Shown: one piece after another, positions 18,648 through 22,394 of the stretch | Position numbering within the stretch: the stretch's first letter is position 1 | How the letters are laid out: the number at the start of each line of letters is the position of its first letter | DNA from: a virus | Virus record (IMG/VR): IMGVR_UViG_3300020448_000041 | Location: 1-22,701 of that record | Strand: one strand, 5' to 3' | DNA length: 22,701 nucleotides | Made by a program: the position numbers and the translations under genes | Notes under the pieces: model-generated | Databases searched by the model: none | What the model was told of the DNA's origin: nothing | What the model saw: the letters and a program-made list of their open reading frames with translations, nothing else

Positions 18648-19858
18648 TGAGTAAGAACACACACCTAGAACACTTAGAAGATAGTATTCTCCTTGATGGT
18701 AAGGAGGGTGCAACAGATGCTTTTATGTTCTTAGATGAACTTGCTAAGACTTTTAGTTCTGGTGGTGACAGTAACTTAAAAATTACTACCAAATGGGACG
18801 GTGCACCTGCTGTATTTTGTGGTACATATCCTGAGACTGGTAGGTTCTTTGTTGGTAGTAAATCTATCTTCAACAAAGATGCTAAGATTAATTTTACACA
18901 CGCAGATGTGGATGCAAATCATGGTAGTTCACCTGGTCTTGCTTCTAAATTGAAGGATTGTTTGACATATCTACCTGCTCTGGGTATCAAAGGGGTGGCA
19001 CAAGGTGACTTACTTTTTACTGATGATAAAGAGAAGAAGAAAATAGATGGTAAAGACTGTCTTATATTCCAACCTAACACTATTACCTATTGTATACCCT
19101 CTGAGGATGACTTATATGATAAGGCAGTGAAAGCAAAACTTGGTATAGTATTTCATACCAGTTATTCTGGTGGTACTATCAGCTCATTGCAAGCTTCTTT
19201 TGGATATAATGTTAAGAAGTTGAATAGTAGTAACGATGTGTTGGTACTGAGTGCTGAGACAGAGCAACTTGGTAATGATATTTTACTCAATAGTTCTGAG
19301 AAGAATGAATTAGTTAAAATAAAATCGTCAAGTGGTACTCTTGTGGCAGGTAGTTTCCTAGACACTATGGCAGAGCACAATGCAGGTAAAGATCAGTTGG
19401 CTGTGGGTACTAGACTAAAGATATTCTTCAACCAGTATGTCAGAAGGGGTCAGAAAATGGGTACATCTACTACAGTTATAAAGGAATTTAAGACATACTT
19501 TGAAGCAGAGTGTAAGAAGGCAGCAGATAAATTAAAGACACCGAAAGGTAAGGCAGGTAAACTTGCTAAGTTATATGAGGGTCAAGATCTTATTGAAAAA
19601 CATGAAAAAGATCTGATTAATACTATTGACTTGTATAAAAATCTTCAGTTAGCAAAGGAAATGTTCATCCGTAAACTAGAGAAGGGTGAAAGATTTGGTA
19701 CATATCTCCGCACGGAGAATGGGTACAAGATAACAGCACCTGAGGGGTACGTTGCTATTCAAGAAGGTAAAGGTGCAGTGAAGTTAGTTGATCGTTTGAC
19801 ATTCTCAGTTGCAAACTTCAACGTAGAAAAGAACTGGGTTGCAGGAGACGGTAAATGA
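18647..19858 (+). CDS. DUF6267-like protein with KxDG motif
   Basis: A 403-aa protein resembling the DUF6267 family of T4-like cyanophages. HLEHLEDSILLDGKEG at the N-terminus is the family's mark. TTKWDGAPAVF carries K49-x-D51-G52, which equals motif I of the covalent nucleotidyltransferase superfamily (DNA/RNA ligases and capping enzymes), where the lysine takes the nucleotide. GVAQGDLLF (116-124) could be motif III and LGIVFHTSY (165-173) motif IV. A clear motif V is not seen. The C-terminal third is helical and Lys-rich. It overlaps the genes on both sides, and the partner downstream is an HxGH nucleotidylyltransferase. Ligase-like activity is inference. Confidence 0.7.
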   Translation: MSKNTHLEHLEDSILLDGKEGATDAFMFLDELAKTFSSGGDSNLKITTKWDGAPAVFCGTYPETGRFFVGSKSIFNKDAKINFTHADVDANHGSSPGLASKLKDCLTYLPALGIKGVAQGDLLFTDDKEKKKIDGKDCLIFQPNTITYCIPSEDDLYDKAVKAKLGIVFHTSYSGGTISSLQASFGYNVKKLNSSNDVLVLSAETEQLGNDILLNSSEKNELVKIKSSSGTLVAGSFLDTMAEHNAGKDQLAVGTRLKIFFNQYVRRGQKMGTSTTVIKEFKTYFEAECKKAADKLKTPKGKAGKLAKLYEGQDLIEKHEKDLINTIDLYKNLQLAKEMFIRKLEKGERFGTYLRTENGYKITAPEGYVAIQEGKGAVKLVDRLTFSVANFNVEKNWVAGDGK

Positions 19859-20400
19859 AGACATGTCATTTTACATTTGGTAGGTTTAATCCACCAACCA
19901 TAGGTCATGAGAAACTTATAAAGGCAGTAGCAAGTTATGCAGGTTCTGGTGACTATTTGATCTACCCATCACAGACATTTAAAAAACCAAATAACCCATT
20001 ACCCTATGAATATAAGGTAGAAATAATGCAGAAGATGTTTCCGTGGGCAAAGATAGAAACTGAAGCATGTTGTAATACTATTATCAAGGTGGCACAGGAT
20101 ATGATGATGAAAGAGTACACTGATATAGTGATGGTGGTAGGTTCTGATAGAGTAGCGGACTTTGATAAGTTATTACAGAAACAAAATAGCATAGACTATG
20201 CATTCAAGACTATTAAAGTTATATCTGCGGGTGATAGAGATCCAGACGGGGATGGTGCAGCTGGAATGTCCGCAAGTAAGATGAGAGAAGCAGCAAAAGA
20301 CGTAAAAACTACTGAATTTATCAAAGGAATACCCGATACTTTGGATACTGATGAGAAGATGGAGCTCATGCAGAAGGTTAGAAGTGGTATGGGCTTATAA
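19855..20400 (+). CDS. HxGH nucleotidylyltransferase, NMNAT-like
   Basis: A 181-aa enzyme of the cytidylyltransferase / NMN-adenylyltransferase superfamily. GRFNPPTIGH at 9-18 is the nucleotide-binding HxGH-type box, GSDRV at 96-100 lies at the second site, and MSASKMR at 138-144 matches the ISxTxxR triphosphate motif. Length and motif order resemble NadM, which makes NAD+ from NMN and ATP; pantetheine-phosphate or glycerol-phosphate enzymes of the same fold are alternatives. ATGA overlap with the KxDG gene suggests the two work together. It is the last gene before a late promoter, which overlaps its stop codon. Confidence 0.8.
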   Translation: MKTCHFTFGRFNPPTIGHEKLIKAVASYAGSGDYLIYPSQTFKKPNNPLPYEYKVEIMQKMFPWAKIETEACCNTIIKVAQDMMMKEYTDIVMVVGSDRVADFDKLLQKQNSIDYAFKTIKVISAGDRDPDGDGAAGMSASKMREAAKDVKTTEFIKGIPDTLDTDEKMELMQKVRSGMGL

Positions 20401-20427: not shown

Positions 20428-21516
20428 ATGAAATCCTTTTCTGAGTTCGCAAAGAAGACAAAGGTTGCGGAAGCAAACATCACCAAAGATAAGTTTTATA
20501 AAAACGAAGTCTATAAACAAGGTGAATGGGTGCTTACTGAGAACGGACAAGTAGGAAAGATTTTACGTCGAGGACCTAACTATGTGTTGTGTCTTACTGC
20601 TGAAGAAACAACCTTCCGCACTTGGATCACAAACATAAAAGAAGTATTTGAGACAGGTACTGACGCATATCGTGAGTATGTTATGTCGCTTACACCTGGC
20701 CAGAAGGTACAGAAACCTGAAGGTACAGTCCCAGTTAAGCAAGTTATTCCAACAGACCCCAAAAAAGATAAGATGAGCCATCACGAGGAAAAGACTTTAG
20801 CACAGTTAGCTGCAGAAACAAGTCTAAACACAAAGTTTAAAAGTGTCGAAGAGACATGGAGATATGATTACTCCGCAGTCATGGGTAGCACAGACATCAA
20901 AGGCAAAGGAGCTGATGGTGTTGGAGGTGGTGACGCACCTGGTATGAAACTTGCAGAACCAAAAGGTGAAGAAGGTAAACCAAGCATCAAAAAGGTAAAG
21001 CATTCATGTGCTACTAAGGTAGAACATGCAGAGTGGGGTGAAGGTAACTGTATAAAAGGAGAGCACACACTACTAGAAGATGGAACAGTAACACACTATG
21101 ATGTTATGTTCGATCATGGACTAGAAAAGAATGTTGCTGTCGAAGATATTAAGGTAACAAGAGAAGCAGTGCATGAGCATGTTGCTAGACCAGAAGGAAA
21201 TCCAGATCAGGATGAAGTAAATACAGATCTACCTGCAGGACCACACGGACAGACTTTCGTAGAACCTGCAATCAAGTCAGAAGGATACGGTAAAGGTAGT
21301 AAGAAGAAAAAGGCACAGGAAGAAAGAGCTGAAGTCGTAGGTGAGGGCAAGGGTCTCTATGCTAATATCCATGCTAAGAGAAAGCGTGGTGAGAAGATGC
21401 GTAGTAAGGGTGACAAGGGTGCACCAACTGAGAAAGACTTTAAAGACTCAGCAAAGACAGCTAAGAAAGAATCATTATCTTTCTCAGCATTCAGGAGTAT
21501 CTCTGAAAAAAAGTAA
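20428..21516 (+). CDS. Putative virion protein with capsid-targeting-like N-terminus
   Basis: A 362-aa hydrophilic protein. The N-terminus MKSFSEFAKKTKVAEA resembles the T4 capsid-targeting sequence (MKTYQEFIAEA) that sends internal proteins into the prohead and is cut after Glu by gp21 protease; here cutting after E15 (VAE/A) is predicted. Middle parts contain a KOW- or SH3-like YKQGEWVLTENGQVGKILRR and a GEHTLLEDGTVTHYDVMF repeat-like strand pair. Near the end is GLYANIHAKRKRGEK, a recurring element of phage virion proteins. The last residues are SFSAFRSISEKK. ATG 20428 is chosen over TTG 20407. A late promoter lies upstream and a dnaX-like frameshift site overlaps its stop. Confidence 0.65.
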   Translation: MKSFSEFAKKTKVAEANITKDKFYKNEVYKQGEWVLTENGQVGKILRRGPNYVLCLTAEETTFRTWITNIKEVFETGTDAYREYVMSLTPGQKVQKPEGTVPVKQVIPTDPKKDKMSHHEEKTLAQLAAETSLNTKFKSVEETWRYDYSAVMGSTDIKGKGADGVGGGDAPGMKLAEPKGEEGKPSIKKVKHSCATKVEHAEWGEGNCIKGEHTLLEDGTVTHYDVMFDHGLEKNVAVEDIKVTREAVHEHVARPEGNPDQDEVNTDLPAGPHGQTFVEPAIKSEGYGKGSKKKKAQEERAEVVGEGKGLYANIHAKRKRGEKMRSKGDKGAPTEKDFKDSAKTAKKESLSFSAFRSISEKK

Positions 21517-21532
21517 CCTCGACTATCGAGGT
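21493..21532 (+). promoter_or_regulatory. Candidate programmed -1 ribosomal frameshift site
   Basis: AGGAG (21493-21497) lies nine bases before the heptamer A AAA AAG (21507-21513), read in frame as GAA AAA AAG, followed by TAA (21514-21516). A hairpin follows, ACCTCGA (21516-21522) with TCGAGGT (21526-21532), seven pairs and a CTA loop. A -1 shift reads GTA ACC TCG ACT ATC GAG GTG into ATG 21534 with no stop. These are the elements of the E. coli dnaX site, although the gap before the stem is shorter (about 2 bases). Confidence 0.6.
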
Positions 21533-21533
21533 G

Positions 21534-21689
21534 ATGCCTGAGTTGGAGGATCCCGATGGTCGTAAACATGGCAATGAACCTATGAAGAAGGTCGATGAGA
21601 AGACTGGAAAGGTTAAGGAAGCTTGCAATCACACTACTGAAGGGGTAGAATGCCCTGTACACGGAAAGAAAGACTGTCCGAAAGATTAA
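21534..21689 (+). CDS. 51-aa Cys/His (CPVHG) protein or frameshift extension
   Basis: A 51-aa reading frame: an acidic N-terminal part (PELEDPDGRKHGNEP), then a Lys-rich stretch, then C31-x-H33, C40-P-V-H43-G and C48. The spacing C-x-H-x6-C-x2-H-x4-C suggests a small metal-binding knuckle. It may be translated from ATG 21534, with GAGG (21528-21531) only two bases away and locked in a hairpin, or as the C-terminal extension of the upstream protein by -1 frameshifting, giving about 420 aa in all. The poor, sequestered ribosome site favours the second. Function unknown. Confidence 0.6.
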   Translation: MPELEDPDGRKHGNEPMKKVDEKTGKVKEACNHTTEGVECPVHGKKDCPKD

Positions 21690-21692
21690 TAC

Positions 21693-22394
21693 ATGAGAAA
21701 AATTTGGCAAGAGGATGTGATCTCTGATCTATCCTCGTTTCGTAATCTGAAAAATCAATATAAACAGATCATTCCAGAGATCATACGATTTGTGGAGGTC
21801 AATCAACCCATATTATCTGAGTGGGTACTTGACAAGTGGGTAGAAGATAGAAATTTAGGTAGAGTACAGCTTTGGGATGGATCATGGAAGGTTATACCCA
21901 TGCCACTCAATGCAGTAGGAACCACAGCATCAGAAGAAGACTTTGAACTCAGCGAGATGGTATCATTCGTTGAGTTATTTAATACTACGGTGGAGAAAGT
22001 ACAAGAGGTACTACCTAAACTGACTGAGAGTATGCAAGAACTGTGTCCTACTTTCTATAGTGCTATAAAAGAAGACGTAGATGGTATGTTACTTAAGTCA
22101 TGTACCATAAGTAAGTTGTCACCTGGTACAAAGATCAATCCTCACAGTGGTGACATAGATTCATTACGCTTACACTTCCCTATAATAGATGACCCAGAAG
22201 CATGGTTGAGTGTACGTGGTAGAAAGAGATCATGGAAGGTGGGAGAACTCTTTGCATTCCATGATAACGACAAGCATTGGGCACAACATAATGGTACACA
22301 CGACAGAATTGTGGTAATTATGGACTATGCACTGTCTCAACTAGAGGAAAAGGGTATATTTATAGAGAAATGGGAGGAAGAACTTGCTATATAA
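21693..22394 (+). CDS. Aspartyl/asparaginyl beta-hydroxylase-like protein
   Basis: A 233-aa protein. The C-terminal half matches the Asp/Asn beta-hydroxylase type of 2OG oxygenase: PHSGDIDSLRLHFPI with H151 and H161, then GELFAFHDNDKHWAQHN with H195 and H199, and HDRIVVIMD with R205. The first 130 residues are helical with no clear match. These enzymes hydroxylate Asp, Asn or Pro in proteins or free amino acids. The gene is separate in type from the three other 2OG-like genes in the window. It sits among putative virion genes three bases after the Cys/His ORF, so a virion protein could be its target; that is speculation. Confidence 0.75.
   Translation: MRKIWQEDVISDLSSFRNLKNQYKQIIPEIIRFVEVNQPILSEWVLDKWVEDRNLGRVQLWDGSWKVIPMPLNAVGTTASEEDFELSEMVSFVELFNTTVEKVQEVLPKLTESMQELCPTFYSAIKEDVDGMLLKSCTISKLSPGTKINPHSGDIDSLRLHFPIIDDPEAWLSVRGRKRSWKVGELFAFHDNDKHWAQHNGTHDRIVVIMDYALSQLEEKGIFIEKWEEELAI

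Follow-up and report, generated by a model that had tools for sequence, protein, structure and literature searches.

Organization of the locus

We analyzed a virus record of 22.7 kb, referred to here as the window. The gene of interest follows a cytidyltransferase-like gene (19855-20400), and its zero frame closes with GAA (21505-21507), AAA, AAG (21511-21513) and a stop codon. The -1 frame remains open from 21507 to a TAA at 21687-21689 and would add 58 residues to the 362 of the zero-frame protein, giving 420 aa. The original prediction described a heptamer, an AGGAG, a hairpin, a -1 ORF and a product of about 420 aa, and this description held to the base (Table 1). The closest isolates for the window gene are the Prochlorococcus phages P-HM1, MED4-213 and P-HM2, with protein identities of 57-60%.

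Table 1. Positions in the window of the gene, its 3' junction and the -1 frame tail
Feature	Position	Strand	Remark
Zero-frame ORF, 362 aa, EKK-stop end	20428..21516	+	phrog_22379-like; domain common with cyanophage 'cytidyltransferase' family phrog_395
AGGAG, Shine-Dalgarno-like stimulator (putative)	21493..21497	+	9 nt 5' of heptamer
Slippery heptamer A AAA AAG	21507..21513	+	within a run of exactly seven A
Zero-frame stop TAA	21514..21516	+	abuts heptamer 3' end
7-bp stem-loop ACCTCGA-CTA-TCGAGGT, putative 3' stimulator	21516..21532	+	arms 21516-21522 and 21526-21532, triloop CTA; 2-nt spacer from heptamer
-1 frame continuation, 60 codons (KKVTSTIEVMPELED...CPVHGKKDCPKD) + stop	21507..21689	+	phrog_32143 match
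ATG within VEVMP, expected gene-caller start	21534..21536	+	without SD at usable spacing
Cys/His segment CNHTTEGVECPVHGKKDC of the tail	21624..21677	+	sequence reading

Neither the zero-frame protein nor the window's tail has a match in Pfam. Residues 20-125 of the 362-aa protein match the C-terminal part of phrog_395 'cytidyltransferase'. The neighborhood comprises DUF6267, cytidyltransferase-like, hydroxylase and head genes, and in isolates the downstream genes run toward one encoding a structural protein of the head or virion. The T4-GC190 cytidyltransferase, which has been detected in S-SM1 virions (PMC3037559), is encoded by a neighboring gene, and its longer homologues have a domain in common with the window protein. 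On the basis of this neighborhood and the shared domain, association of the window protein with the virion or prohead is a reasonable inference, but no more than that, the evidence being indirect. The label "virion-type" used in the original prediction has the same standing. An AlphaFold2 model of the 362-aa protein, built with 22 relatives, gave a pLDDT of 37; it was uninformative and was not used.

Two annotations around the gene deserve mention. The gene past the tail (21693-22394) belongs to the aspartyl/asparaginyl beta-hydroxylase family (PF05118) and is labelled TlmH in P-HM1. In many cyanophages, the gene studied here is preceded by a small gene bearing the label 'ribonucleotide reductase alpha subunit / NrdB' (L278:2035-2310, L280:1990-2271, L425-L427, L429-L433). 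This small gene belongs to phrog_4808, a family with a match to the N-terminal domain of the 362-aa protein in the window, and so the name 'NrdB' is in all likelihood wrong.

Conservation of the proposed slip site and its putative stimulators

A homology scan of viral contigs with the window gene retrieved 70 loci. The A AAA AAG heptamer is kept in all 36 relatives that reach the junction, in each of which the -1 frame is open and the zero frame ends GAAAAAAAG followed by TAA or TAG (in L051 the stop, TAG, comes one codon later). Most of the tails read KKV-x-G-P-V-E-V-M-P...CN...CPVHG. Homologous genes with the heptamer at their end also occur in P-HM1 and P-HM2, where two genes are annotated, in MED4-213, where the tail is unannotated, and in S-CAM3, a phage of another genus in which A AAA AAG is followed by TGA, the C-terminus is different and the -1 tail contains VEVMP. 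The heptamer likewise closes the gene in S-PM2 (NC_006820 and the separate record LN828717), S-RIM32, Sf-FP1, Sf-CH11, S-H9-2, S-CAM1 and Syn1. A second homology scan and a pattern scan raised the total to 117 distinct cyanophage sequences in which the heptamer is followed by a stop, either immediately or after one more codon, and the -1 frame is open and encodes a conserved VE[VI]MP tail. The pattern scan selected for the heptamer, and hence its sequences count toward diversity only. The stop abutting the heptamer is TAA in 70 sequences, TGA in 36 and TAG in 9.

The C-termini encoded upstream vary (SEKK, EEEKK, ETEKK, RSSKK, KGKK), and thus the heptamer is retained while its protein context changes. 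Outside the junction, the 40,061 codons of these ORFs contain in-frame A AAA AAG 7 times, and AAA AAG accounts for 122 of 1215 Lys-Lys pairs. When 14 slippery heptamers were screened in the fetched loci at junctions with a -1 ORF, A AAA AAG was found at 112 and the others at 0-6 each, although the former figure is partly fed by the heptamer-selected pattern scan.

A one-base sequencing or assembly error in the A run, breaking a single continuous gene, would produce a similar picture, and homopolymer runs are prone to such errors. The original prediction raised this caution for the A7 run. However, the run recurs in independent metagenomes and in separately sequenced isolates, both S-PM2 records included, and no relative examined has an in-frame fusion of the zero-frame gene and the tail. 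At least seven genera are represented among the isolates that carry the site and were sequenced independently (e.g., P-HM1, S-CAM3, S-PM2, S-RIM32, S-H9-2, S-CAM1, Syn1), and therefore this explanation is all but excluded; with more than 100 distinct sequences in hand, the caution is removed.

The flanking elements are conserved as well. Pairing with the 16S anti-SD peaks 8 nt upstream and reaches -6 kcal/mol or below in 91% of 88 distinct upstream sequences, compared with 32 ± 4% in synonymous-codon resamples at the same threshold. Downstream, the 40-nt segment lying 12-52 nt from the heptamer start has a mean folding energy of -11.9 kcal/mol, compared with -5.9 ± 0.24 kcal/mol in resamples preserving the -1 protein. 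This excess is position-specific, being gone by +30 and much smaller elsewhere. For the window itself, the 45-nt region gives -13.3 kcal/mol versus -5.1 ± 3.0 in resamples preserving the -1 protein. These controls ignore the kinship of the sequences and overstate significance, so the margins weigh more than the nominal significance.

The stem begins about 5-8 nt after the heptamer in most relatives, compared with 2 nt in the window. The original caution that the window stem lies unusually close therefore held, and it is possible that this hairpin is partly melted when the ribosome occupies the slip site. The strength of the two elements trades off between groups, and some copies do not have all three. 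In S-PM2-like sequences the SD is at its strongest (AAGGAGG), whereas the downstream structure is weak (mean z -1.0). Conversely, the SD-like element ~8-14 nt upstream, present in the window, is absent in the L094-L103 group; these sequences, together with L112, have no strong SD and carry an AGGCUUG..CAAGCCU stem from ~6 nt past the heptamer. Differing stems occupy the same place in L093 and in L094-L112, which is suggestive only. A fixed-offset covariation count for the S-CAM3-like stem gave mixed pairing and was set aside as evidence.

Transcriptional slippage, in which one A is added at the run in some mRNAs that are then translated normally, would yield the same fusion, as A7 plus one A gives the same product. 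Such realignment is documented at runs of 9 A (PMC5009743). In contrast, the runs here comprise 7 A (103 sequences) or 6 A (14 sequences) and in no case reach 8; the final G is invariant, and slippage of the polymerase would leave the SD-like and stem elements unexplained. We consider this alternative very improbable.

Ribosomal slippage at the heptamer is the reading we favor. With tRNA-Lys(UUU) as the sole lysine tRNA, A AAA AAG is very prone to shifting in E. coli (PMC5009743). A single tRNA-Lys, with anticodon UUU, is likewise found in Prochlorococcus MIT 9201 and in Synechococcus RCC307. This survey covers two host-group genomes, not the window's own host, and long-arm Leu/Ser/Tyr-class tRNAs were not all typed.

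Coding in the -1 frame and the separate start codon

Between the heptamer and the first ATG, the nonsynonymous/synonymous ratio, computed from nearest-neighbor differences, is 0.32 in the -1 frame versus 0.86 and 6.3 in the other frames. The -1 frame is thus under purifying selection 5' of any ATG. The V/I of VEVMP is written with many different synonymous codons, and its MP is invariant. SD-like pairing of -6 kcal/mol or below at 3-9 nt spacing before the internal ATG is found in 0 of 114 sequences.

The tail modules differ between phages: CPVHG, YERMVKHIKK, DUF3008 (S-PM2) or a longer array. The latter is found in L051 (4251-4895), where the same slip site is followed by a 215-aa -1 tail combining CPVHG, YARMVKHIKK and a DUF6321-like C-terminal array. 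Three small orphan families, phrog_32143, phrog_30268 and phrog_11250, would be, at least partly, frameshift tails, which calls for an annotation correction. In another member of the protein family (L152:3577), A AAA AAG lies just 5' of the stop and the -1 ORF encodes a YERMIKHIKKGYAKDG module; its relatives L150, L151 and L153 are without that arrangement.

Two alternative ARRANGEMENTS occur: the heptamer junction, or a tail encoded by a separate gene that starts at an ATGA overlap. In the heptamer-less relatives (L111-L146, S-CAM4, S-WAM2, S-RSM4, Sf-CH1b), the tail starts at the ATGA overlap, typically with MK[ST]FKQ[FL]RE. Every heptamer-less relative with a readable tail has this ATG start, and no relative was found with a readable VEVMP tail and neither the heptamer nor the ATGA start. 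The two solutions therefore replace each other. Relatives with two genes and no heptamer had been named in advance as a finding that would refute frameshifting. They do occur, but only where the tail has its own ATG; they thus complement the heptamer and do not contradict it. In the more distant S-CAM8 and P-SSM7, an overlapping separate downstream gene (MLSFKxLxEKKTKVKINP) is a possible counterpart of the tail, with weak similarity. A tree built from 118 zero-frame proteins has the heptamer on both sides of its deepest split, and two changes suffice to account for the ATGA class; the direction of change between the two forms remains unsettled.

Two motifs touch on the fate of these proteins. 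A [LIVM]xE motif, like the site of the T4 prohead protease (gp21), lies just 5' of KK and the slip site in 103 of 117 sequences, although this is weak evidence for cleavage because the composition is E-rich. The separate-gene form of the tail has a T4 capsid-targeting-like start, MK[ST]FKQ[FL]. Together they could hint at prohead processing, which we regard as a possibility only.

An alternative is that there are two separate genes throughout, the tail being translated by termination-reinitiation from the internal ATG, or from a GTG overlapping the stop, with the heptamer incidental. Public annotation lists two genes, sister lineages truly have a separate tail gene, and the invariant MP of VEVMP also counts in favor of this view. 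In addition, the TGA group (36 sequences) has GTGA, with GTG over the stop, and reinitiation is possible there. However, the TAA and TAG sequences have no start overlapping the stop, and neither the protein-level constraint on codons 5' of the ATG nor the lack of a strong SD at usable spacing before it fits this view. Moreover, close relatives of S-CAM3 exchange TGA and TAA yet hold the heptamer, and reinitiation would not preserve A AAA AAG. This explanation is therefore very unlikely.

Proposed mechanism and known frameshift systems

Conservation of the three elements and of the -1 reading frame, and complementarity with the start codons of relatives, is established by these comparisons. We propose that the 3' end of this T4-like cyanophage gene is very probably the site of a dnaX-type programmed -1 ribosomal frameshift, a conclusion resting on sequence criteria only, without a peptide, reporter or ribosome profile. 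The original proposal of a dnaX-like frameshift is thus strongly supported: heptamer, SD and structure are conserved above synonymous-codon controls, the structure in much of the family, and the tail is selected 5' of any ATG.

In the proposed mechanism, ribosomes would arrive at A AAA AAG with both the P and A sites occupied by tRNA-Lys(UUU), whereupon the SD-like sequence behind the ribosome and the mRNA stem ahead of it would promote a one-base slip. Some ribosomes would stop at once, giving the 362-aa protein, and others would read on in the -1 frame to give the 420-aa form. Both products may be forms of one virion- or prohead-associated protein, carrying the C-terminal module (CPVHG in the window; YERMVKHIKK, DUF3008 or DUF6321-like elsewhere) on a set fraction of copies. 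Slippage in cells, its efficiency, the fusion protein, the ratio of the products and their role are all inferred.

A bolder reading is that T4-like cyanophages evolved two interchangeable ways to express one gene pair, the slippery heptamer replacing a start codon, with two head-associated modules linked in a set ratio and C-terminal domains swappable behind one slip site. We lean toward this reading, with limited confidence. These phages also provide a natural set of variants, with SD strength, stem and start codon substituting for one another, in which the evolution of recoding is directly testable.

The closest parallel is E. coli dnaX (tau/gamma), which has the same A AAA AAG, an upstream SD-like element, a downstream stem-loop and a host with a single tRNA-Lys(UUU) (PMC5009743, PMC3711429). 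In contrast to dnaX, whose frameshift product is the shorter one, the cyanophage frameshift product is longer, the zero-frame stop lying just past the heptamer; such an arrangement has been proposed for some other dnaX genes (PMC5009743). The cyanophage site also lies in a different protein, encoded by a phage gene, and its stem is often shorter or closer. Phage T7 makes its capsid proteins 10A and 10B by a -1 shift near the 3' end of gene 10, which places a C-terminal extension on a fraction of copies, and 10B is experimentally proven. The cyanophage gene likewise lies near virion genes and would acquire a C-terminal extension by a -1 shift close to its 3' end, but the slip site and protein differ and virion membership is inferred. 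IS3-family transposases use A AAA AAG with a stem-loop and sometimes an SD stimulator (PMC4066793); there, however, the product is a transposase fusion in mobile elements, unrelated in protein and location.

Our search of the open-access literature returned no report of cyanophage frameshifting at such a site; the mechanism is already known, and the gene family is apparently unreported in that literature. If the proposal is correct, a conserved programmed frameshift operates in a phage group that ranks among the most abundant in the ocean. The reference phages S-PM2, Syn1 and P-HM1 carry the site, annotated as two genes or omitted, and published proteomes and gene lists would miss the fusion protein.

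The G/GT tail assembly chaperones of phages likewise involve a conserved -1 shift toward the 3' end of an ORF. The chaperone gene is expected just 5' of the tape measure gene, a position that the cyanophage gene does not occupy; it has no tape-measure context and is flanked by the cytidyltransferase-like gene on one side and head genes on the other. According to a study cited as ref. 44 in PMC10885494, T4-like phages produce their chaperones without frameshifting, by another mechanism. A AAA AAG is also paired with a -1 ORF at three further loci from unrelated phages, L189 (- strand, 488), L226 (- strand, 1971) and L222:8203, and these resemble ordinary frameshifts of tail assembly chaperone genes.
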